A DNA stretch of 48,427 bases from positions 84,156 through 132,582 of the forward strand of contig JACOZP010000008.1 of the NCBI GenBank assembly GCA_016181265.1, in the 5' to 3' direction. The stretch is from Candidatus Woesearchaeota archaeon (GTDB taxonomy: Archaea; Nanobdellota; Nanobdellia; Woesearchaeales; GW2011-AR9). A program made the position numbers and the translations under genes. Under the pieces are notes generated by a model. That model was not told the origin of the DNA. It saw nothing but the letters and a program-made list of their open reading frames with translations, and made no database searches. Below are positions 5,495 through 45,690 of this stretch, in pieces (the first letter of the stretch is position 1; every line of letters starts with the position of its first letter).

Positions 5495-7282
5495 CTATCC
5501 CACTCCCCAGACGGGATCATGTTTCCGTTTGATCTCGGCAATCTCTTTGAGAATTTCTAATTCATTTTTGGATAAGTATTTCTTTAGCACTTTTAATTTC
5601 TTAAAGTGTTCTTCTGGGATGTCAGTATACAGGAAATCACCCTCCTGAACTTGACGGCCGATGGTGACGTCATCCATGGCCATAGCTAATTGTTTTCCTT
5701 GTTCAGCAGTATTGATGTTATCTTGGCCTTCTTTCATACTTTTTACGGTCGTAAGCCGTCTGCCATTTTTATCCATAATCGGATCACCCGCACGGATCTT
5801 GCCGACTTCGATCTCTACACCAGCGATGGCGGGATTATTCTGACGGAAGACGTAGCCCTTAAGTAAAAGAAACTTACAGGGTCGGATGAGAGTAGACAAT
5901 TCACGCAGTTCAATCTCTTTTTTGAGATTGCTGATGTGCTGCTCGTAATCCTCAATCACTTTATAGATGACGTCGTGAGCAATAACTTTTAATCCTTTGA
6001 CTTTACAATATTCTTCAATGTCGGGTGGTATGGACACATTGAAGCCAAGCAGAATGCCATAAAACTCATTCTTATCACGGATGGATTCTACTTGGGAGAT
6101 GTCACGTTTGGTAATGGTTCCTAAATTGGCGGAGGAAATAGGGACCTGCTTTTCTTGTAAAAGTACTTTTAATGCTTCTAGACCGCCAATCGTGTCAGCT
6201 TTGATAATAACACCAACTTCGTCGCTTTCTTGGACGAGAACTTCACCGATCTCTTGTTGGACTTCCTCTTTGAGACGAGCGATATCTTCTTCTTTGCCAG
6301 AGCAGGAACGAAGAGGCATGCCTGCAACGGCTTTATCCAAACCGGGGGCGGCGATCTTAACGCCGGTGGCGGCAAATACTTCTTTGACATTTTGGAATTT
6401 ACTTTTTTTCTCCCGCATCTCAGCTAGTTCTGCGGGTTCTAAGAGCGCGCGGATTTTAGTGACAATCGGGCCATCGATTCCGCCGATGACAATAGTATCA
6501 TTGACAGTTAGATGCCCGTTATAAATAATGGTATTAAGGGTTGTCCCAAGACCTTTCTCTTCGGTGACTTCGAGAAGCGTGCCTTTAGCATTTCCCTCTT
6601 CCTCAATCTGCAACTTAGCTTCGAAATATTTTTGTGCTAGACCAGTTAAAACCATGAGGAGTTCAGGGATGCCCTGACCAGTCAATGCGGAAACAGGAAT
6701 AATGGCTAATTGTTTCGTGTAATCCTGCACGCGGTCGAAACGTTCTGCCTGCAATCCTAACTCGTTAAATTTGCCGACAAGGTCGTACATCTTCTTTTCG
6801 AATTCGCCCTGAATAGAATAGTCTAAACTGTTGATTGCCTCTAATAAGAGGGTTTGCTGGTTCCATTTCCAGCCGTGGATGAGATCGATCTTGTTGGCAG
6901 CGATGATGAAAGGAACTTTATGTGCTCGTAAAATTTCAATGGATTCTAAAGTCTGAGGTTTGAATCCTTCATTGATGTCGACGACAAGAATGGCTATGTC
7001 AGCTAAACTGCCACCGCGCTTGCGCAGAGAAGTGAATGCAGCGTGACCTGGCGTGTCGATGGTCAGAAGACCAGGAACGGTCATTTTTCTTCCTGAAAGA
7101 TCGAGCAGTTTGCCGCAGATTTTTTTGATGGTGTCAAGAGGGATAATAGAGACGCCGATGGCTTGGGTGATCGCTCCCGCTTCGCCAGCAGCGACAGCAC
7201 TGCGACGAATCTTGTCAAGGAGAGATGTTTTTCCGTGATCAACATGCCCAACGACGGTTACTAAGACTTTGCGGGTAATCAT
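5495..7282 (-). CDS. infB: translation initiation factor aIF5B (IF-2 type GTPase)
   Basis: aIF5B is the GTPase that promotes ribosomal subunit joining and initiator tRNA placement. The 595-residue protein has G1 GHVDHGKT at residues 12-19, G3 DTPGH at 76-80 and G4 NKID at 130-133. The beta-barrel domain II, domain III (a long stretch around the VIIKADTIGGLEALK block) and domain IV with its linker helix follow. Length matches compact archaeal IF5B, and no intein is present. A TATA-like AAGTATAAATTT (minus strand about 7312-7323) lies upstream. The PUA-like gene follows in the same operon. Identification is firm. Confidence 0.97.
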   Translation of the reverse strand: MITRKVLVTVVGHVDHGKTSLLDKIRRSAVAAGEAGAITQAIGVSIIPLDTIKKICGKLLDLSGRKMTVPGLLTIDTPGHAAFTSLRKRGGSLADIAILVVDINEGFKPQTLESIEILRAHKVPFIIAANKIDLIHGWKWNQQTLLLEAINSLDYSIQGEFEKKMYDLVGKFNELGLQAERFDRVQDYTKQLAIIPVSALTGQGIPELLMVLTGLAQKYFEAKLQIEEEGNAKGTLLEVTEEKGLGTTLNTIIYNGHLTVNDTIVIGGIDGPIVTKIRALLEPAELAEMREKKSKFQNVKEVFAATGVKIAAPGLDKAVAGMPLRSCSGKEEDIARLKEEVQQEIGEVLVQESDEVGVIIKADTIGGLEALKVLLQEKQVPISSANLGTITKRDISQVESIRDKNEFYGILLGFNVSIPPDIEEYCKVKGLKVIAHDVIYKVIEDYEQHISNLKKEIELRELSTLIRPCKFLLLKGYVFRQNNPAIAGVEIEVGKIRAGDPIMDKNGRRLTTVKSMKEGQDNINTAEQGKQLAMAMDDVTIGRQVQEGDFLYTDIPEEHFKKLKVLKKYLSKNELEILKEIAEIKRKHDPVWGVG

Positions 7283-8731: not shown

Positions 8732-10075
8732 TTAAATCTTCAACTCTCTTAACTTCTTCTCAACATAGTCTTTCTTTTCAGCCAGCGCGGTCGGCGAGCC
8801 GCCGCCGTGCCACGTAAACCGTGGTCGCATCTGAATAGGGAAGATGCGTTCATTGGCATCGTCAAAGATGACAGCAGCACCGGTCAGACGAGGCAGTTGA
8901 TTGATCTCTTCTTCCAATCCGTGACGCATATAGCTTTGTGTCAACTGTTGCAATGCTTCAACATCCATCTGTGCGGTGAGACGATGGGCGATAACGGTAT
9001 CTGACTGGGTCATGACGTCGGTATGGATCTTACCTGGTTGCTGTGAGGCGAGGATAAGAGAGATGCCCGGCTGACGACCTTCACGAAGAATGGTAATCAG
9101 CGCATCAGTGGCAGCGGTTTTGCCTTCTTTAGGCAACAGTTCGTGTGCTTCGTCTAAAGCAATCCAAACTAATGGTTCTTTAAGCTGCCCTTCGGCAGAT
9201 TTAGTGAAATAATGCATGGCAGCATCGACTGTTTGGAATTCTTCTGTTTTACGAGCGAGCATGCGCTGGTTGAAAAGGGTACGACAGATCAGCCCGACGA
9301 CGAGCGCCTTGATTTCCCATCCCGAGGACATAGTAGCGTAGGGCGAAACGTCTAAGACGGTAACTTGACCACCGGCAACAAGATCTTTGAGAGATGTTCC
9401 TTCTTTAGAAAATATTTCCCAACCTTTCGCTCTTTCAAATTGGTTGACAACGATGCTTTTGACGACATGATCACTCTCCGTGTCTTTTTTGATGATCTCA
9501 ATGAGATGATCTAAATCATAATTTCCTTCTTTTTCATTCAAACGTTGGACAATTTTAGTGATGAGGACACCTTCCGGAGAATTGGGATGAATGGTAAAAG
9601 CAGTACACCAATCCAATGGATCAACGTCTACTGGTCGTAGGGAAAAAGGAAAATCAGTGGGGATGCCCGAATTTTTGTATTGATAATAAAAGCCTGTAGG
9701 CGTGTATATCTTAACGTCTAATGATTTCGCCTCCATATTCCAATCTTTGAGTAAAGAAGCATCTTGATAGTTAGGATATTTCATGGTCCAATAGATGCCC
9801 ATGGTATCGAGGAGAATAATAGAAAGGTTCTGCTTTATTTCAGGAGGTAAATCAGCTAAACCCTCAGCAATAGCACCCATCGAATATGATTTCCCTGACC
9901 CTCTTTTGCCCACAATAAACATGACATGAGCACTAGCAATGTCCAGATAGACGGGATTAGAGAGGGAAACGGTCTGTCCCATCTGGATATACTGTTTCCC
10001 AATAAGAATCGTCCCATCTTTACCGTATTTTTCTACATCGCGTTTAGAGCGGCCGATGACAACATCAAATACCAT
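8732..10075 (-). CDS. HerA/FtsK-superfamily ATPase (DUF87 type)
   Basis: A 447-residue ATPase of the HerA class. An N-terminal small barrel (residues 1-45, VIGRSKRDVEKYGKDGTILIG) is followed by Walker A GKRGSGKS near 56-63. A Walker B IALDEAHELLP (about 310-320) and the sensor region LASQQPGKIHTDVMTQ (about 343-358) follow. HerA proteins are hexameric DNA translocases, usually paired with the nuclease NurA in DNA end resection. No NurA gene lies nearby, and the next genes are an unknown protein and DnaG primase. It may instead be one of the HerA-like ATPases with another partner. ATPase assignment is firm; the pathway is not. Confidence 0.88.
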   Translation of the reverse strand: MVFDVVIGRSKRDVEKYGKDGTILIGKQYIQMGQTVSLSNPVYLDIASAHVMFIVGKRGSGKSYSMGAIAEGLADLPPEIKQNLSIILLDTMGIYWTMKYPNYQDASLLKDWNMEAKSLDVKIYTPTGFYYQYKNSGIPTDFPFSLRPVDVDPLDWCTAFTIHPNSPEGVLITKIVQRLNEKEGNYDLDHLIEIIKKDTESDHVVKSIVVNQFERAKGWEIFSKEGTSLKDLVAGGQVTVLDVSPYATMSSGWEIKALVVGLICRTLFNQRMLARKTEEFQTVDAAMHYFTKSAEGQLKEPLVWIALDEAHELLPKEGKTAATDALITILREGRQPGISLILASQQPGKIHTDVMTQSDTVIAHRLTAQMDVEALQQLTQSYMRHGLEEEINQLPRLTGAAVIFDDANERIFPIQMRPRFTWHGGGSPTALAEKKDYVEKKLRELKI

Positions 10076-10153
10076 CTGTTAGATGAAAGAAAGCGAGGAT
10101 AAAAATGTTTCCCCGAAGAAGATTTATATTTTGCCACTTTCAAGCAAAGACTT

Positions 10154-10645
10154 ATGGAACAATATATGATGCCGAAAAGGCTGGATTTTAAACATCTGCG
10201 CTTATGTTTAGAAAAGTACCAAGCAAATCGTCTTTTTATTAGAGATTGTGGAGGATACGATACAAACGGCAAATATAGAATGCAAGGTCTTACAAAAGTA
10301 GATGAAGATCTAGAAGGAAGAACTCTTGGTTTTCGAAAGGAAAGGTCCGGATTATATTTGATGATCGATTCGGAGGAAGTGTTTCATTTCCTATTAAAGG
10401 ATTATGATGCAGGGTTTTCTTTGGCTTATGAACGAATCCAACCCACCGAAGATGGAATCGGGAGAATGATAATGTTAAGTACGGGCATTGATCCTTACGA
10501 TCAAAATCTGCCAGAACCACGGAAATCATCCCTACGTAATATTTTTGATAATCACCTCGTAGAAATATCTTTTAAGGGAAGAGTTCATCTTCAATTTCAT
10601 TCTTGGTGGGAGAAACCACATTGGAAGTATTGGATGGTCATATAA
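10154..10645 (+). CDS. hypothetical protein
   Basis: A 163-residue soluble protein without signal peptide, membrane helix or recognised motif. It starts with a helix (about residues 8-30) and continues with short strands, including a RSGLYLMIDSEEVFHFLL segment; the end is aromatic-rich (HSWWEKPHWKYWMVI). It stands alone between two minus-strand genes, with a TATA-like TTTATATTTTG about 30 bases upstream. Codon use looks like that of its neighbours. No function can be inferred. Confidence 0.65.
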   Translation: MEQYMMPKRLDFKHLRLCLEKYQANRLFIRDCGGYDTNGKYRMQGLTKVDEDLEGRTLGFRKERSGLYLMIDSEEVFHFLLKDYDAGFSLAYERIQPTEDGIGRMIMLSTGIDPYDQNLPEPRKSSLRNIFDNHLVEISFKGRVHLQFHSWWEKPHWKYWMVI

Positions 10646-10669
10646 TAAAAGAAAAAGAAGGAGACAGAC

Positions 10670-12067
10670 CTAAAGCTGATCATCTGTCAAAATGGTGACT
10701 TTTGAAGGCTCTTTGATCTTTGCTGAAGTTCCAACGATGAAATTAACGCCTAACTTTTCAGCTAATTTCAAGAGATCAACATCAACAGCACCATCTAAAG
10801 CAAGACCATAGATTCCACCATTAAGGCTTTTAATTGTGGAGCTGAGCTCACTAAGCGGTACTTTCCCCAAGATATTGAGACCAGGATCAAAGATGCATGC
10901 TCCTCTCGTGCCAACAAGATCTTCCATTGTCTTCTTTAATGATTTCTTCTCTTCGGGGGAGAGACCTTTACGAGGTGGTGGAGTCGTAGCACCGCGAGGG
11001 ACAAAAGGTGTAGCTGCTGCTTTGTTTTCCGGAGATGCTACCACTTTTTCTGAGGGAGCACTGCCATTGGCGAATTTAGAGTTCAAAGCTGGACGTGCCG
11101 CAATGGTATTATTTCCGTTCTGTCGATTGTTCTCAAAACGACGTGCAGGTGTCTGGGAAGGAGTGCGCTGGCTTCTGTTGAAGCTGTTCTGTTTTTGGTC
11201 AGGATGATCTTCTCGCAGTGCGCCTTGTTCATCAATTCCCATATCTAAGCGTGCTTGTTCAGCAGTGATTCTACCACGCAAAGATTTATGGATCTCTTTC
11301 TTGGTGATCTCCTCAACTTCTTTACCGTCAGGCGCTTTACAGACAAAATCAATATCAGCGACGCTTAACAGTTCACGAATATTTAAATCTCCGCCGCGGT
11401 CTCCATCAACAAAAACGGTGATTGATTTCTTTCGGCTAAGATCTTTAATTGTCTGAGGACAGGATGTGCCGTTCATAGCAATAGCGTTCTTGAACCCGTG
11501 TTTTAAGAGATTGAGAACATCTGCACGACCTTCAACGACAATGACTTCTTCACTTTCGTCAATAGAAGGACCAGAAGCCAAGCGCTCTGGACCATATTCA
11601 GAAACTTCCATCATCCGTACGGATTGGGCAACTTCATCAGCCAATTCTTGAGAATCAGGGAGCGTCTCTTCAGTCAGTTCACGGAGAAGCTCTTTAGCCC
11701 GGTCGATGACAAACTGACGTTTACTGATGCGAACATCTTCAATCTTATCAACATGAATTTTTGCATTACAAGGACCGATACGTTGGATGATTTCCATCGC
11801 TGCCCCGACAATCGCAGTTTCAGTCTTATCAAGAGAACTAGGAATGATAATTTCTCCAGCAGTACGTCCGCCGTTGGTATTGGTATTGACTTCGATCCTA
11901 CCAATACGACCGCTGCGTTGTAATTCCCGCAATTCTAAGTCGTTGCCAAGCAATCCTTCGGTCTGTCCAAAGATTGCTCCGATGACATCAGGACGGTCAA
12001 CGATACCGTCAATCGTAATTGTCGAATGAATGATATATTTTGCCGCTACTGGGCTTATTTTTGCCAT
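10670..12067 (-). CDS. dnaG: archaeal DnaG-like primase (TOPRIM), RNA-exosome associated
   Basis: The TOPRIM domain is clear: the acidic EVIVVEGRADV (about residues 176-186) and VFVDGDRGGD (about 218-227) hold the metal-binding Glu and Asp-x-Asp. Archaeal DnaG lacks the bacterial zinc and helicase-binding modules; in studied archaea it binds the RNA exosome and can also prime DNA. The N-terminal about 165 residues and the C-terminal domain (about 380-465) fit this form, with a Gln/Asn/Pro-rich linker between. The ATG at 12067 is chosen over an upstream in-frame codon because GGAGGC lies seven bases before it. The long upstream region holds inverted repeats and a candidate RNA. Confidence 0.9.
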   Translation of the reverse strand: MAKISPVAAKYIIHSTITIDGIVDRPDVIGAIFGQTEGLLGNDLELRELQRSGRIGRIEVNTNTNGGRTAGEIIIPSSLDKTETAIVGAAMEIIQRIGPCNAKIHVDKIEDVRISKRQFVIDRAKELLRELTEETLPDSQELADEVAQSVRMMEVSEYGPERLASGPSIDESEEVIVVEGRADVLNLLKHGFKNAIAMNGTSCPQTIKDLSRKKSITVFVDGDRGGDLNIRELLSVADIDFVCKAPDGKEVEEITKKEIHKSLRGRITAEQARLDMGIDEQGALREDHPDQKQNSFNRSQRTPSQTPARRFENNRQNGNNTIAARPALNSKFANGSAPSEKVVASPENKAAATPFVPRGATTPPPRKGLSPEEKKSLKKTMEDLVGTRGACIFDPGLNILGKVPLSELSSTIKSLNGGIYGLALDGAVDVDLLKLAEKLGVNFIVGTSAKIKEPSKVTILTDDQL

Positions 12068-40481: not shown

Positions 40482-41399
40482 TCATTTTAATCCCAACTTG
40501 TCAAGCAACGAAAATGCTTCTTTGTCGAATTTGGAGAAAGCAAACCACTTCTTGCCTAGATCTTTTAGTGAAGCACCAAAATGGTATACTTCTTTGTTAT
40601 CGATGATAATAAATCGATCATGTGACTGTTTAAATTCTGTTATTTTTATAGGTGGATATTGAGAATTGTGTTTTACTAAATCGAGAGATAATTGTTTTGA
40701 TATCTCTTTGGTGAATATTATTACTTTCACTTCTTTATTTCTTTTGTTCAACAACGTTAAAACTGAATCGTCAATGTAATTGTCAATGATAATTATCGAT
40801 TTATCTGCGGTTCTGATAATATCTGAGACGAATTTGTAGGCATCAAAGATCTGCCCATCAAAGAATATGCCTTTTTCTGGTTTTAAGTCTTTACTTTGGA
40901 TGGCATCAAATACTTGTTCGAACTTTTGGTCGTGGATTACTTGTTTTCTTTCAACATTATCTAGTCGTTGGAAGATTTGAGCATTAGACGCAATGAATCT
41001 TCGCATGGCGACAAAGGCACTCATGATTTGGATGCTAATTTTAACCGCAGTATCACTTTTGAGGACAGCGGAGAGCATGGCTACTCCTTGTTCAGTGAAA
41101 ACATAAGGCAAATATCTTCTCCCACCTCGTGGATCATTAGGCGCCATATTCTGCAACTCCAGAGGGATTATATTTGAGGTCGCAAATTGCGACCTCAAGA
41201 TTTCAAATTCAGAATCTGTTAATTGAAACATAAATTCAGATGGAAATCGCTCACTATTTCTTCTAACTTGTTCATTTAATCGTTTTGTTTCTACATCATA
41301 GAGCTTTGCAAGATCAGTATCTAGCATTACCTGCAAACCCCTTACGGAATAAATCTTGCTTTTAATGTTGTCCGTGGTTATTAGTGAGTTGTTTTCCAT
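40482..41399 (-). CDS. ORF6N-domain protein with C-terminal PLD-like domain
   Basis: The 305-residue protein opens with the ORF6N DNA-binding domain (IYSVRGLQVMLDTDLAKLYD, then RFPSEFMFQLT and RYLPYVFTEQGVAMLSAVL), common in phages and mobile elements. A coiled region follows. From about residue 185 a phospholipase D-like fold ends in QSHDRFIIIDNKEVYHFGAS, which holds the single H-x-K/R-like catalytic site. Similar two-domain proteins occur in bacteria near mobile genes. It ends the unit that starts with the recombinase; only three bases separate them. Confidence 0.85.
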   Translation of the reverse strand: MENNSLITTDNIKSKIYSVRGLQVMLDTDLAKLYDVETKRLNEQVRRNSERFPSEFMFQLTDSEFEILRSQFATSNIIPLELQNMAPNDPRGGRRYLPYVFTEQGVAMLSAVLKSDTAVKISIQIMSAFVAMRRFIASNAQIFQRLDNVERKQVIHDQKFEQVFDAIQSKDLKPEKGIFFDGQIFDAYKFVSDIIRTADKSIIIIDNYIDDSVLTLLNKRNKEVKVIIFTKEISKQLSLDLVKHNSQYPPIKITEFKQSHDRFIIIDNKEVYHFGASLKDLGKKWFAFSKFDKEAFSLLDKLGLK

Positions 41400-41402
41400 A
41401 TT

Positions 41403-42263
41403 TTATGTTATAAGATGAAGATTTGAGTGGTTCTGTTCTTTATGCTGCAAACTATCGTATGGACTTTTGACGTTGCATAGATTAGCTGCGGCGAGATGAA
41501 CATAAATCATCGTAGTATTGATGTTATTGTGACCTAACAAAGGTTGTACTTCTAAAGGAGAATAACCATTTTGAATCAAATGTGTAGCAAAAGAATGTCT
41601 TAACATATGGGGATGGACGTTCTTGCTGATTTTTGCGTTTTTTACTGCTCTCTTTAATATTTCACGAATTGATGAATCATCATAAGGAGAATTATTCCAA
41701 CCAGTGAACAACCAACATTCTGGAAGTTTATTTTTGATATATTGTTGTAATTCTTCTTGAAGAGAATGAGCAATTATAAAAGGGCGGTCTTTTCCTCCTT
41801 TACCATTCCTTACCCAACCATAACCTTCTTTGATATTTAAATGGTCTATTTTTAGGTTTAACAGTTCTCCAACTCTTAATCCAGAAGAGTACAACAAACG
41901 AATCATGAGAGAGTGTTTAGGATTCTTTATGGAAGAAATTAGAGTTATCGTTTCTTCCTTAGTCAAGAAATCAGGCAATCGTCTACTTACTTTAGAATAT
42001 CTTAAGTTAATGGTTAATCTACGGTGCAATATTTCTTCGTAGAAGAACTTAAGAGCATTGAGATAAACATTCAATGTATTTCCGGGAGCACCGTTATGGA
42101 TTAGAACATCTAAGAAATCTTTAATATCTTTCTTACATAACGATAAAGGTTCTTTGCCTGATTTACGAAAGAATCGTTCAACGCATTGTTGGTAGGTTTG
42201 AATTGTTCTTGGTCTTAGACCACGACGCAATCCTTCCTTTCTGATCAGATCATTAATGTCCAC
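41403..42263 (-). CDS. tyrosine recombinase / XerA-like integrase
   Basis: The 286-residue enzyme has a SAM-like N-terminal core-binding domain and a C-terminal catalytic domain. The residues are Arg130 (SSGLRVGELL), Lys157 (GKGGKD), His219 and Arg222 (HMLRHSFATHL), His245 (LLGHNN) and the nucleophile Tyr254 (TMIYVH). It could be the chromosomal XerA or an integrase; its place between an ORF6N protein and a repeat-rich region favours a mobile origin. A minus-strand TATA box (CTATTTAAACG, about 42296-42286) fits a leaderless start at 42263. Confidence 0.9.
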   Translation of the reverse strand: MDINDLIRKEGLRRGLRPRTIQTYQQCVERFFRKSGKEPLSLCKKDIKDFLDVLIHNGAPGNTLNVYLNALKFFYEEILHRRLTINLRYSKVSRRLPDFLTKEETITLISSIKNPKHSLMIRLLYSSGLRVGELLNLKIDHLNIKEGYGWVRNGKGGKDRPFIIAHSLQEELQQYIKNKLPECWLFTGWNNSPYDDSSIREILKRAVKNAKISKNVHPHMLRHSFATHLIQNGYSPLEVQPLLGHNNINTTMIYVHLAAANLCNVKSPYDSLQHKEQNHSNLHLIT

Positions 42264-42306: not shown

Positions 42307-42399
42307 TTGTCCAGTGCGGGAGTGGCTTGGTATTTTGTGGTATTATGAGCTGAATGTTAAGAATTCTTGGAGATAGAGGTTTGTCCAGTGAGTGTCTTG
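42307..42399. repeat. direct repeat TTGTCCAGTG next to the recombinase gene
   Basis: TTGTCCAGTG occurs at 42307-42316 and again at 42381-42390. Each copy is followed by a closely similar AGTGxCTTG (42321-42329 after a CGGG insert; 42391-42399 directly). A partial inverse, GACTGGATAA, follows at about 42401-42410, making the second copy part of an imperfect hairpin. The position just upstream of the recombinase is suitable for recombination core sites, but no crossover product is visible, so this stays a candidate. Confidence 0.45.
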
Positions 42400-42410
42400 T
42401 GACTGGATAA

Positions 42411-42499
42411 GTAGTAACAGATTTTAGAGTTATGGCCCACGGGATTTTACGCGTTTAGCGCGTATACCCCGGTAAAACTTCGTTTTAGGGATATAAAGA
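42411..42499. other. non-coding region with hairpins left of cassette 1
   Basis: It contains a hairpin ACGCG-TTTAG-CGCGT (42449-42463), extended by CGGG/CCCG with an internal loop, and AAAAC-TTC-GTTTT (42474-42486), a five-pair stem with a TTC triloop. A related GTAAAGTTTCGTTTTGC occurs inverted in the right arm of cassette 1. No open frame is convincing. Confidence 0.5.
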
Positions 42500-42576
42500 G
42501 TTATGTGCAATAAATCAGGAGTACTTTAAGAAAAATCTAAGAGGGCAATTTCTCGACTAACTAATGGGGGTCGCCG

Positions 42577-43857
42577 TTACGTCACTTGATCGCAAGCTAT
42601 CTCTGTATCTTCATTAACTTCCAAAGTTGGAACCCCTAGTTTTGCATAATTCTCCAGAAATGCAACAAAAAATCCATCTACTGGTTTTATCCTCCATTTA
42701 TTATATCTCTTGCATAACGCCGCAAGGCCAACAGTGTCATTACCTGTATGATAAAACATTTCACGGTAGACTTCCTGATAATCCTCTGGTGTAAATGAAG
42801 CCGGAATGCCTGTAAAGCGCTCCAAAACTTCTACTTTTCCCGGATTATCACGAAATAATGCATGCCGATACACACTTGGTATTATCCATTGAAGCTTCTC
42901 TTCAGCAGCAAAAACATCTCGAGCTTTCAACCCAGTTATTTTCTCCAACATCTCAAATTGGGGTGCTGGATCATCAAGATGAAAAGCGAAATTAGCCATC
43001 TGTTCGAAAGCCCCTCTAGCTACTTCATATTCCGGTTTTATTCCTGATACCTCATGCAACCATAACAAGCCACTAAAAACATTTACATATTTCCAAAGGC
43101 CATCCATATAGCCGCACCCTCTATTTTCCACCTGAAGCAAGCGTTGGTACACTTTATGAGCAATTTCTGCATTTGGAGCTTCTTCTGTTGCAGCATAAAC
43201 TATTTTTGCACCTCCAAAAAATGGAAAAAAGTCACCAACATAAGCAATCCATGTACACCCATCTTCATTCGTCAATTTATGGTATTGCCGCTGAATTAGT
43301 CTTCTTTTCTCTTTCGGAGATTCCGGTAATGTAGTAAGAAAATGTTCTAAATCTTTATCTTGGCTAATCTCTCGTTCAACAGATTCGATTCCGCCGCGCC
43401 GTTCTATTTCTGCTCTTGTAGCCTCACGACAAGAAGTTAAATATGCCAAACTACCAAGTTCTCGTCGGGGAGGTGAGTCTTTCACTTGTTCTCCAATCTC
43501 CGCTGCTCCCCCTTCGACAAGATTTACTTGAAAAGCAAGATAGGGAGAATTTTTTTGCATTGCCTCTTCTCGCAGGACCTTCAAAAATTCTTTGGGAATA
43601 GGTATGCCACTCACTTCAGCAATAGCAGCACATTCTTTCAGATAATCAAAGTAAATTGCTTCGAAATGGATTTCCACAGCTTCACGAGAAGTACTATGGG
43701 TCAAACCTTTCTGACGGCATTCTGGCCAAGTATATCTTAAAAAGTCACCCGTCAGTTTTTGACGATAATAATCTTCAATTCCAGTCTTAATATCGGCTGT
43801 TGGAATAGCGTAACGTTGCGCAAATTCCTGAAAGTGATCCTCTAAAGTAAGTTCCAT
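42577..43857 (-). CDS. helical-repeat protein of unknown function (cassette 1)
   Basis: The product (426 residues from the ATG at 43857) is almost fully helical. In its C-terminal half units of about 45-60 residues recur, built round EMLEKITGLKARDVF and EVLERFTGIPASFTPEDYQE, with similar but weaker units upstream (HEVSGIKPEYEVARGAFEQM). Such L-x-x-x-T-G-I/L repeats suggest an alpha-solenoid binding protein. No catalytic motif is seen. It is divergent from the TrmB regulator and shares a short promoter region with a palindrome, so that regulator probably controls it. The stop lies in the left inverted repeat. Confidence 0.7.
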   Translation of the reverse strand: MELTLEDHFQEFAQRYAIPTADIKTGIEDYYRQKLTGDFLRYTWPECRQKGLTHSTSREAVEIHFEAIYFDYLKECAAIAEVSGIPIPKEFLKVLREEAMQKNSPYLAFQVNLVEGGAAEIGEQVKDSPPRRELGSLAYLTSCREATRAEIERRGGIESVEREISQDKDLEHFLTTLPESPKEKRRLIQRQYHKLTNEDGCTWIAYVGDFFPFFGGAKIVYAATEEAPNAEIAHKVYQRLLQVENRGCGYMDGLWKYVNVFSGLLWLHEVSGIKPEYEVARGAFEQMANFAFHLDDPAPQFEMLEKITGLKARDVFAAEEKLQWIIPSVYRHALFRDNPGKVEVLERFTGIPASFTPEDYQEVYREMFYHTGNDTVGLAALCKRYNKWRIKPVDGFFVAFLENYAKLGVPTLEVNEDTEIACDQVT

Positions 43858-43887
43858 TTTAATCACTTCGCAATAAAAATCAAGCCC

Positions 43888-43942
43888 TATATATATTAAT
43901 GTAATAAGTAAAACTTATGACAAAAACGAAAACTATAAAAGG
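43888..43942. promoter_or_regulatory. divergent promoters with palindromic operator
   Basis: The minus-strand TATA box (TAATATATATAGG, about 43899-43887) serves the helical-repeat gene and the plus-strand ACTATAAAAG (about 43932-43941) serves the TrmB-like gene; both genes start about 22-30 bases later. Exactly between them lies ATAAGT-AAA-ACTTAT (43904-43918), a perfect six-base inverted repeat with a three-base spacer. It is a good candidate for binding by the dimeric TrmB-family regulator to control both genes. Confidence 0.6.
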
Positions 43943-43963
43943 AACAGGTGTTTTTAATAGGGA

Positions 43964-44704
43964 ATGGACACGGCATTATTAGAAGAATTAGGACTTACCA
44001 AAAACGAAATCAAAGTTTACTTAGCCCTGTTGGAATTAGGAAGCACTGCCGCTGGCTCTTTAATCAAAAAAGTAGGAATGCATCGAGCAGCAGTTTACGA
44101 TATCATTGATTTGCTAACAGGCAAAGGCCTTGTTTCTTACGTTATTAAAGCTAACAGAAAGTATTTTGAGGCTCAAGATCCGGATAGATTGCTAGAATAT
44201 CTTGAATCTAAGAAACAAGATTTAATAGATAAAGAAGAAAAACTTAAACAATTTCTTCCAGAACTTCAATTAAAAAGAAAGCTCTCCAAAGAAGAACAGG
44301 AGGGAACTCTCTACAAAAGTAAGAAAGGTCTCAAATCTATCTTTGAAGATATTCTAAAAGAGGGAAAGCCTTGGTTTGTTTTTGGAGCAACTGGAGAATT
44401 TAAAGAGTTATTTCACGCTTACTTTATCCATTTTCATGAAAGAAGAATAGAATTAAAAATCCCACTAAAAATAATCTTTAATGAGGTGGTCAGAAAGCAA
44501 AAAAGAGAAGAAGAATTAAAATTATCTCAAATAAAATATCTTCCAAAATCATACCTAAGTCCTTCTACTACATATATTTATGGTGATAAAGTTGCTATTA
44601 TCAACTGGTCATCTGATCCCATAGCTTTTCTAATGAGAAGCAAACAAGTAGCAGATTCTTATAGGAGTTTCTTTGACATTCTTTGGAAAACGGCGACCCC
44701 CTAG
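43964..44704 (+). CDS. TrmB-family transcriptional regulator (cassette 1)
   Basis: The 246-residue protein has the TrmB winged-helix domain: LEELGLTKNEIKVYLALLEL (residues 6-25), GMHRAAVYDIIDLLTGKGLV near 38-57, and the wing with ANRKYFEAQDP. A coiled-coil helix (LIDKEEKLKQFLPEL) and a C-terminal ligand-binding domain follow, with IYGDKVAIINWSSDP near 208. TrmB proteins sense sugars or other metabolites in archaea; the ligand here is unknown. It is divergent from the helical-repeat gene. Its last codons are formed by the inverted-repeat block AACGGCGACCCCC. Confidence 0.9.
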   Translation: MDTALLEELGLTKNEIKVYLALLELGSTAAGSLIKKVGMHRAAVYDIIDLLTGKGLVSYVIKANRKYFEAQDPDRLLEYLESKKQDLIDKEEKLKQFLPELQLKRKLSKEEQEGTLYKSKKGLKSIFEDILKEGKPWFVFGATGEFKELFHAYFIHFHERRIELKIPLKIIFNEVVRKQKREEELKLSQIKYLPKSYLSPSTTYIYGDKVAIINWSSDPIAFLMRSKQVADSYRSFFDILWKTATP

Positions 44705-44811
44705 ACGCAAAACGAAACTTTACTCTCATAGGAAATTGCCCTTGTACTCCTGATTTACTCGCCTCCGCTTCGCTACGGCGCCCCTACATAAAGTAGGGGG
44801 CACATAACATC

Positions 44812-45623
44812 GTTAATCTCAATCGCTTCGGGGCAAAATTTACGGATGGGGCAAGAATTGTTACTACTTCTAAAAGACTAAGAAATCGAAAGATTTAAAT
44901 ACTTGCTCTATCTTTTTATATCAGGAGGCAAATAAAATGAATGAAAATCTTGTAAAAAGAATTGGAAAGACAGGACTTTATGTAGTTCAGGGAGATATTA
45001 CTCAAATTCCAACTGATGCGATTATGACTGCAATTAATTCTGAAGGTATGTGGTATGGTGGAGTTGATGGCGCAATTAAGAGAGTTGCTGGAAATCAATA
45101 TCATTCACAAGCATCAAAAGCTATGCCTCTTAGTGACTTGCAAACAGTAATTGCAAAAGGTAACGCATTAAAACATAGAGGAAAATTCAACGATGTTGTT
45201 TTTGTTGTTGATGATTTAGAGTCATCTTTAGATAAAGTTGTTTATACAGGTTTAGAGGCAGCACATCAAGAGGGTTATGGTCAATTACTCATCCCAGCAA
45301 TAAGAATGGGTGTAATGGCTGGTGCTGTAGAAAAAACTCCTGAAGAAACAATTGCCAGATTAGGACAGGGCATAGAAAGATTTATGCACCAATACGGAAA
45401 ACAAACTAAATTAGAAAATCTAACATTTGTAGTCTACAGCGATCCTAACACGGCAGGACAATTGACAAATGGATTAGGAAAAGTTTCACTTAACTAATCA
45501 CACAATTCTTGCCCTTTATTCTTTTTTCTTTATTGAACTTCGTTCTCGATAGAAACTAATTTTGCCCCTACGCGACTTTTCGGTCGAAATTTTTCCACAC
45601 TTCGTATGGAAAAAGAGATTAAC
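44812..45623. mobile_element. gene cassette 2, bracketed by block-wise inverted repeats
   Basis: Three exactly matching blocks occur in mirrored order. GTTAATCTC is at 44812-44820 (inverse 45615-45623), GGGGCAAAATT at 44830-44840 (45558-45568) and GGGCAAGAATTGT at 44849-44861 (45502-45514). The left arm is 50 bases, the right arm 122. The extra length holds hairpins TTTTTCCA/TGGAAAAA (45590-45614), CGAC/GTCG (45573-45586) and GAAC-TTC-GTTC (45535-45545). The cassette abuts cassette 1 (three-base gap) and contains one gene, the macro-domain protein. There is no transposase. The bracket fits one gene with its promoter very closely. Confidence 0.72.
44937..45497 (+). CDS. macro-domain protein (cassette 2)
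   Basis: The 186-residue protein is a macro domain, a fold that binds ADP-ribose or related nucleotides. It shows VVQGDITQIPTDAIMTAINS (about residues 17-36), the glycine-rich GGVDGAIKRVAG loop (about 41-52), and PAIRMGVMAGAVEKTPEETI near 121-140. A strong ribosome site (AGGAGG) lies eight bases before the ATG, and a TATA-like GATTTAAATAC near 44891-44901 gives a short leader. Inverted repeats surround the unit. Possible roles include removing ADP-ribose from targets, but no ADP-ribosyl transferase gene is nearby. Confidence 0.85.
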   Translation: MNENLVKRIGKTGLYVVQGDITQIPTDAIMTAINSEGMWYGGVDGAIKRVAGNQYHSQASKAMPLSDLQTVIAKGNALKHRGKFNDVVFVVDDLESSLDKVVYTGLEAAHQEGYGQLLIPAIRMGVMAGAVEKTPEETIARLGQGIERFMHQYGKQTKLENLTFVVYSDPNTAGQLTNGLGKVSLN

Positions 45624-45690
45624 AGGAATTATGCCTAGTTTTTCCACCTCCCCAGATAGTTTTATTAATATCTTCTCTTCCACCATATCA

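Follow-up and report, generated by a model that had tools for sequence, protein, structure and literature searches.

An array of putative integron-like gene cassettes with specifically complementary ends in a DPANN family

In the window analysed here, the whole 48,427-nucleotide stretch of Woesearchaeota DNA, two divergent genes at 42500-44808 are enclosed by sequence blocks that recur in mirrored order, which raises the question of what kind of element these blocks delimit. The preliminary description had listed four exact inverted blocks of 9, 14, 10 and 13 bases; their positions and three of the lengths stood, the third block being 11 nt rather than 10 nt long (Table 1). Including a fifth match of 8 nt, the blocks form a colinear chain of 55 matched bases, compared to a maximum of 29 in 3000 dinucleotide shuffles and of 46 in 3000 random window pairs of equal spacing, in agreement with the earlier judgment that four such blocks exceed chance. 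The spacers between them are unequal in length, as had been described, and the innermost blocks do lie at the 3' ends of both genes: the right copy of B4 (B4') encodes the last codons of a TrmB-like gene (T-A-T-P; stop codon at 44702-44704), and the left copy shares 2 nt with the stop codon of the opposite gene. The two additional hairpins reported for the right arm were also found, between B1 and B2 and in that arm alone (~44761-44780 and 44781-44799; DNA fold z = -3.6 for 44761-44799). RNA folding of single arms was no better than that of shuffles, and the arm DNA used as a query against its own genome matched only the arms themselves.

We read this locus as an integron-like array of movable gene cassettes, headed by the one at 42500-44808, and propose that the two ends of a cassette would pair with each other in single-stranded DNA or in an excised circle. 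We give this combined reading, with either form of pairing allowed, a probability of about 0.72. On the sequence evidence presented below, an integron-like array is very probable, while a role of the cassette ends in pairing as a single strand, which presupposes a single-stranded substrate, is somewhat favoured. The earlier suggestion of a cassette that is mobile through recombination at its ends thus gains support from its likely status as a unit of an array that carries recombinase-type sites and lies beside a tyrosine recombinase gene. This neighbouring gene, likely to encode the enzyme involved, had escaped the preliminary description, as had a second cassette with mirrored blocks of its own (44812-45623) and an outer 11-nt match.

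Table 1. Features of the array locus (positions are those of the window; two positions separated by a slash are the left and right copies of a block; both copies of B2 to B4 are given on the + strand).
Feature	Position	Strand	Remarks
Tyrosine recombinase, 286 aa, presumed cassette recombinase	41403..42263	-	Pfam Phage_integrase 2.6e-40 and SAM-like N-domain
TTGTCCAGTG repeat 1	42307..42316	+	~45 nt upstream of recombinase start
TTGTCCAGTG repeat 2	42381..42390	+	direct repeat; second copy likewise in L007, L012 and L017
AttI-like core site S1, GGATATAAAGA joined to GTTATGTGC	42489..42508	+	aligns with core sites at the same position beside relatives' recombinases
Block B1, GTTATGTGC	42500-42508 / 44800-44808		9 nt, exact inverted match
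Block B2, TAAATCAGGAGTAC	42511-42524 / 44744-44757 (B2')		14 nt, exact inverted match
Block B3, AGGGCAATTTC	42542-42552 / 44732-44742 (B3')		11 nt, exact inverted match
Block B4, GGGGGTCGCCGTT	42566-42578 / 44689-44701 (B4')		13 nt, exact inverted match; left copy at junction with cargo
Cargo gene A of cassette 1, 429 aa	42577..43866	-	ORF; no Pfam family above cut-off
Cargo gene B of cassette 1, TrmB-like regulator, 246 aa	43964..44704	+	Pfam TrmB 8e-14
Outer right-arm hairpin, CCCCTAC-ATAAA-GTAGGGG	44781-44799	+	TTTA-type loop on the other strand, conserved
Inter-cassette site S2: R'' GCACATAAC (cassette 1), ATC, R' GTTAATCTC (cassette 2), AAT	44800..44823	+	single ACATAACATCGTTATGTNNAAT match of its own genome within 3 mismatches
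Cassette 2	44812..45623	+	own mirrored blocks 44830-44840 / 45558-45568 and 44849-44861 / 45502-45514
Macro-domain protein, 186 aa, cassette 2 cargo	44937..45497	+	Pfam Macro 1.4e-5
Site S3	45590..45640	+	hairpin 45590-45614, then R'' GAGATTAAC at 45615-45623, then degenerate R'

The recombinase reading frame is open, and relatives of the protein were found in 47 of 59 related genomes. A scan of genome contigs gave one close relative, in Woesearchaeota UBA10192, the nearest named organism, with 59% identity in the recombinase. Its closest solved structure is the XerA-like 4A8E. With the NCBIfam XerA model (NF040815), it scored 211, just below the cut-off of 220, and it is the sole match to this model in its own genome, which is 89% complete. 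The score with the integron integrase model TIGR02249 was 186, below the cut-off of 265 and obtained in two pieces. Alignment with IntI4 (2A3V) likewise fell into two pieces, with 19 residues of the recombinase opposite 62 of IntI4; the IntI-specific insertion, an additional domain near patch III, is missing. Because the recombinase is XerA-like and lacks this insertion, we regard the system as integron-like and outside the IntI family. An ORF6N-domain protein is encoded at 40482-41399, between the recombinase and a Hef-type helicase, and is missing from that place in the sister species G002.

Upstream of the recombinase gene, the motif TTGTCCAGTG occurs twice. This motif or a close variant was found ~45-65 nt (108 nt in one case) upstream of 15 of the 19 recombinase genes examined, including the present one, and is probably an arm site of the recombinase or an operator. 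In several relatives the motif is followed by a core site resembling GCWTATANNNAGTTATGC, and a similar core site precedes a number of homologous recombinase genes by ~150-420 nt, as would be expected of a putative attI. In the window, the right half of the attI-like site S1 (R', 42500-42508) belongs to cassette 1 and is the left copy of B1. Since S1 spans 42489-42508, B1 would be half of a recombination site, and we consider the outer blocks to be putative recombination half-sites. The outer match, an exact mirrored 11 nt (AAGTAGTAACA, 42409-42419/44859-44869), lies beyond the four blocks; GTAGTAACTACTT occurs in the attI region of G002, so the match may belong to the attI region rather than to cassette 1.

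Comparison across the family revealed a common grammar of sites. Cassettes start with R' (GTTAWGTNN-AAT) and end with its complement R'', and neighbouring cassettes abut as R''-ATC-R', with the ATC centre present in 87 of 91 sites and the AAT tail in 85. The site ACATAACATCGTTATGTNNAAT, with up to 3 mismatches allowed, was found in 29 of 49 family genomes; ~118 sites were counted among the matches listed for it, compared to ~7 for the reversed control. These sites are rare outside the family, and order-level relatives are nearly devoid of them. Orientation was uniform within every locus (94 sites in 32 loci, none mixed), and in one genome (G008) a long array with near-identical ACATAACATCGTTATGTNNAAT sites adjoins the recombinase gene. 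All genomes compared were assemblies, many of them fragmented, and in many cases the contig that carries an array has no recombinase gene. By a strict criterion, at least 57 of the 91 sites have a hairpin with a TTTA-type loop on their R'' side; the right arm of cassette 1, described earlier as having gained hairpins, thus carries the R''-side hairpin typical of these sites, and right-side hairpins are the rule across cassettes. An initial weight matrix built from early guesses of the core was abandoned for the ACATAACATCGTTATGTNNAAT pattern because it yielded many false hits. Viral contigs yielded 16 single site matches and no array in the stretches read, and we took these matches as due to chance.

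Two familiar kinds of element were considered and rejected, in line with the preliminary description. An insertion sequence or transposon would have a transposase between its terminal inverted repeats; there is none here, the cargo being a protein without family and a TrmB-like regulator. In a simple invertible segment of the shufflon or invertase type, the end sites would be inverted copies; S1 and S2 are not, and their orientation is shared, as judged from the AAT tail of both together with the ATC centre of S2 and the R' half of S1. No target duplication was seen at an empty site.

Cassette 2 follows the same plan, with a predicted end-to-end DNA pairing of -24.2 kcal/mol compared to a mean of -8.4 kcal/mol for mismatched ends, although it ranked only 6th of 44 in the arm alignment test. 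The R'' of S3, GAGATTAAC, is the exact complement of the R' of cassette 2, and S3 is probably the end of this cassette. A third cassette with a PQ-loop gene may follow.

The layout R'-NN-AAT-B2-B3-B4-cargo-B4'-B3'-B2'-hairpin-NN-R'' was uniform across genera, B2 beginning directly after the AAT tail in most cassettes. In related genomes, where the preliminary description had proposed to look for the blocks at the ends of other genes, matched arms were found around many cassettes. Arms of the same cassette scored 68.3, compared to 41.6 (sd 8.8) for mismatched arms, in a set of 59 cassettes that succeeded a first set of 44; the own arm ranked first in 40 of the 59, and none of 20,000 permutations reached the observed total. 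Arms that face each other across one site scored 42.2, which is the null value. The bacterial attC model, in which neighbouring arms pair across a site, was rejected on this score, and with no match between the arms on either side of a site, the layout differs from that of bacterial attC. Predicted DNA hybridisation gave the same picture, with -28.6 kcal/mol for own arms against -8.4 kcal/mol (sd 2.5) for mismatched ones and -38.2 kcal/mol for cassette 1, the pairing being specific in 54 of the 59 cassettes.

This matching extends into the sites themselves. R' and the adjoining NN are complementary to the R'' of the same cassette at all nine bases in 35 of 55 cassettes, and likewise in cassettes 1 and 2, whereas the same was true within one site for only 2 of 91. 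At the variable R'/R'' positions, a mean of 3.42 out of 4 matched, compared to a permutation null of 2.00 (sd 0.12). Because R' and R'' match within a cassette and not within a site, neighbouring cassettes are independent units joined at ATC. The blocks vary among cassettes, stay matched within each and, as arms, occur with different cargo, and the alternative of conserved coding or terminator sequence at orthologous genes therefore fails. Furthermore, comparison of related cassettes showed 8 double and no single changes at paired positions in one pair (L044_103 and L046_5581), 3 double and no single changes in another (L041_8352 and L043_1364), and 7 double and 11 single changes in a third (L025_6901 and L042_4787); in several other pairs, one-sided changes outnumber double ones, some with poor arm alignments. 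The sequences show cassette ends that are specifically complementary and co-varying, as a functional stem would be.

The sequences also show exchange of cargo at B4. The TrmB-like gene of cassette 1 has a 96% relative in G002, at another place, with another partner gene and within other arms; on one side the homology ends within B4 (AAAACGGCGACC), and on the other it reaches five codons into the divergent partner. Two cassettes of different genomes (L025I_1399 of G008 and L042_3394 of G013) have both arms in common (~95% and ~91% identity) and carry cargo without homology, and the similarity of re-used arms ends at B4 in relatives. Cargo gene A has no relatives in the 58 related genomes searched. 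The cargo of 85 proteins includes PIN and ribbon-helix-helix proteins, regulators of the AsnC and TrmB types, methyltransferases, MFS transporters and a tRNA synthetase. Cassette genes were counted in both orientations, 30 in one and 45 in the other. A TATA-like sequence was seen by eye between the divergent genes of cassette 1, and gene pairs of this kind seem to carry their own promoters. A Hef-type helicase gene adjoins the recombinase or the array in G000, G002, G011, G028, G029, G059, G060 and G066, and cassette content differs among the arrays examined. As this neighbour recurs while the cassettes differ, the chromosomal place is stable and its content fluid.

Some further cassettes deserve mention. 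The TrmB-type cassette of G002 (L090 3430-3470 and 6500-6650) lies without a recombinase near an apparent tRNA gene, and the two halves of its site R''-AGGAATTCCATAC-R' match each other. TrmB-like regulators are strongly expanded in the family, with matches in 42 of 49 genomes, some with more than 10. One cassette occurs twice in the L025 array (minus strand, 6002-6900 and 9959-10857) with 93.5% identity. Two cassettes of ~310 bp, in L025 (5691-6001, minus-strand reading) and L044 (3143-3454), lack a gene of at least 70 aa and are possibly empty; the one in L025 has mirrored end blocks and inner hairpins.

In the mechanism that we propose, the adjacent XerA-like tyrosine recombinase would act on these sites to fill and reshuffle the array. 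Recombination would take place at R''-ATC-R', with the exchange point most likely in the central ATC, and new cassettes would probably enter at the attI-like site beside the recombinase gene; such excision, circle formation and insertion are steps that we infer from assembled sequences. B1 to B4 would be the two strands of a stem belonging to the cassette itself, its ends pairing in single-stranded DNA with the gene or genes as the loop; alternatively, the two arms would meet as an interrupted palindrome in an excised circle. The right-arm hairpin would form an asymmetric side branch and may give polarity. In bacteria, attC sites recombine as folded single strands in which bulges determine the choice of strand (PMC2727003), and by analogy the one-sided hairpin here could play the part of these bulges. 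End pairing would make each cassette a unit among many near-identical sites. A more far-reaching version, which we hold tentatively and at slightly less than even odds, is that these arrays represent a distinct DPANN cassette class, in which the whole cassette forms one very large foldback substrate for recombination, with the gene looped out; the recombinase would recognise the two ends of a cassette by their own pairing rather than by a conserved attC, and new genes would be taken up between the innermost paired blocks.

The same data could be read without single-stranded pairing, if the recombinase moved duplex sites in the manner of Xer/dif and the mirrored arms played no part in recombination, being traces of cassette birth through inverted duplication or conversion. 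The R''-ATC-R' core is near-palindromic and usable as a duplex by an Xer-type enzyme, the recombinase is XerA-like, and local conversion between arms could produce double changes. Such conversion would however have to spare the spacers, which differ in length and sequence while only blocks of 9-17 nt are kept matched, and the layout uniform across genera and the specificity of pairing in most cassettes also speak against it, so that we judge this explanation unlikely. The preliminary description had itself offered a stem formed over a long distance, with hairpins at its side, as single-stranded DNA or RNA; its stem agrees with the specific, co-varying complementarity of each cassette's ends, and of its two nucleic acids DNA is favoured over RNA, given that wobble-type mismatches are not enriched on either strand (7 and 9 of 53 stem mismatches, a share equal to that of mismatched pairs) and that no Rfam family matches, although sequence cannot fully tell DNA from RNA stems apart and no strand could be assigned from wobble asymmetry. 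Paired ends that act in RNA, for instance by forming a long-range stem and thereby insulating or stabilising cassette transcripts or terminating transcription, would suit the hairpins and gene 3' ends near the arms. Yet one transcript would rarely span both arms, since cassette genes run in both directions, and the complementarity continues into the recombination half-sites, which makes a role in RNA very improbable.

A separate doubt concerns the array in the window itself, which might be a degenerate, inactive relic of an inherited system, an idea compatible with integron-like cassettes in the family at large. The degenerate S3 and the presence of just one site within 3 mismatches in this genome point in that direction, whereas the open recombinase frame, the complete end matches kept by both cassettes, the different content at the same place in the sister species and the near-identical TrmB-like gene in another cassette there do not; we regard a relic as doubtful.

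Among known systems, archaeal XerA resolves chromosome dimers at one dif site, whereas here an array of sites with cargo is attached, and the pdif sites of dif modules stand in alternating orientation, whereas sites here keep one orientation per locus and the module ends are complementary. XerA proteins (4A8E, 5HXY; NF040815) are nevertheless the closest protein relatives of the array recombinase. The dif/pdif modules of Acinetobacter plasmids (PMC13141974) are similar in that gene modules bounded by Xer-type sites are exchanged as units, but consist of C and D modules with pdif sites served by the host XerC/XerD, in contrast to the dedicated neighbouring recombinase presumed here. Atypical integrative elements with strand-biased circularization (PMC9345347) offer a tyrosine-recombinase element with a strand preference, and with it a precedent for single-strand handling, but form one large element that is not known to have a cassette array or cassette-specific arms.

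Integrons of bacteria and archaea (PMC9668308; PMC2727003) resemble the present system, with a recombinase next to an attI-like site, diverse accessory genes arranged in an array, R''/R' half-sites of the AAC...GTT form, a single site orientation and folded complementary DNA, which is suggested here as well. They differ in several respects. Most sites here are R''-ATC-R' (17 nt) and not the R''-L''...L'-R' hairpin of an attC (~57-142 nt) at a gene end; complementarity joins the two ends of a cassette with the gene inside, whereas theirs resides in an attC beside the gene; and genes occur in both orientations, whereas those of the IntI type are mostly promoterless, in one orientation and read from Pc. 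The IntI-specific domain, which the present recombinase lacks, serves as a criterion for integrons (PMC9668308), and by this criterion the system is not a standard integron, yet it appears to work like one. As far as open-access papers show, no such system has been described, and the own-arm design was not found for known integrons. Integrons have been reported for 75 archaeal genomes, among which there were only six IntI genes (PMC9668308). Screens demanding IntI and a bacterial-type attC would probably miss the present system, although over half of the genomes in one DPANN family have its site, and there it would offer small-genome archaea a standing route of gene exchange for toxin-antitoxin-type, regulator, methyltransferase, transporter and tRNA synthetase cargo. 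With end pairing, two questions also become testable, namely how a recombinase singles out one cassette when many sites are alike and how a gene turns into a cassette.

Sites of a longer kind were observed in one genome, G012, where an array (L031 1005-1124, 2470-2572 and 3756-3932) has attC-like sites of ~95-170 nt with 11-bp complementary ends. This array also has cassette-specific mirrored blocks, and another contig of the same genome carries the short R''-ATC-R' sites.
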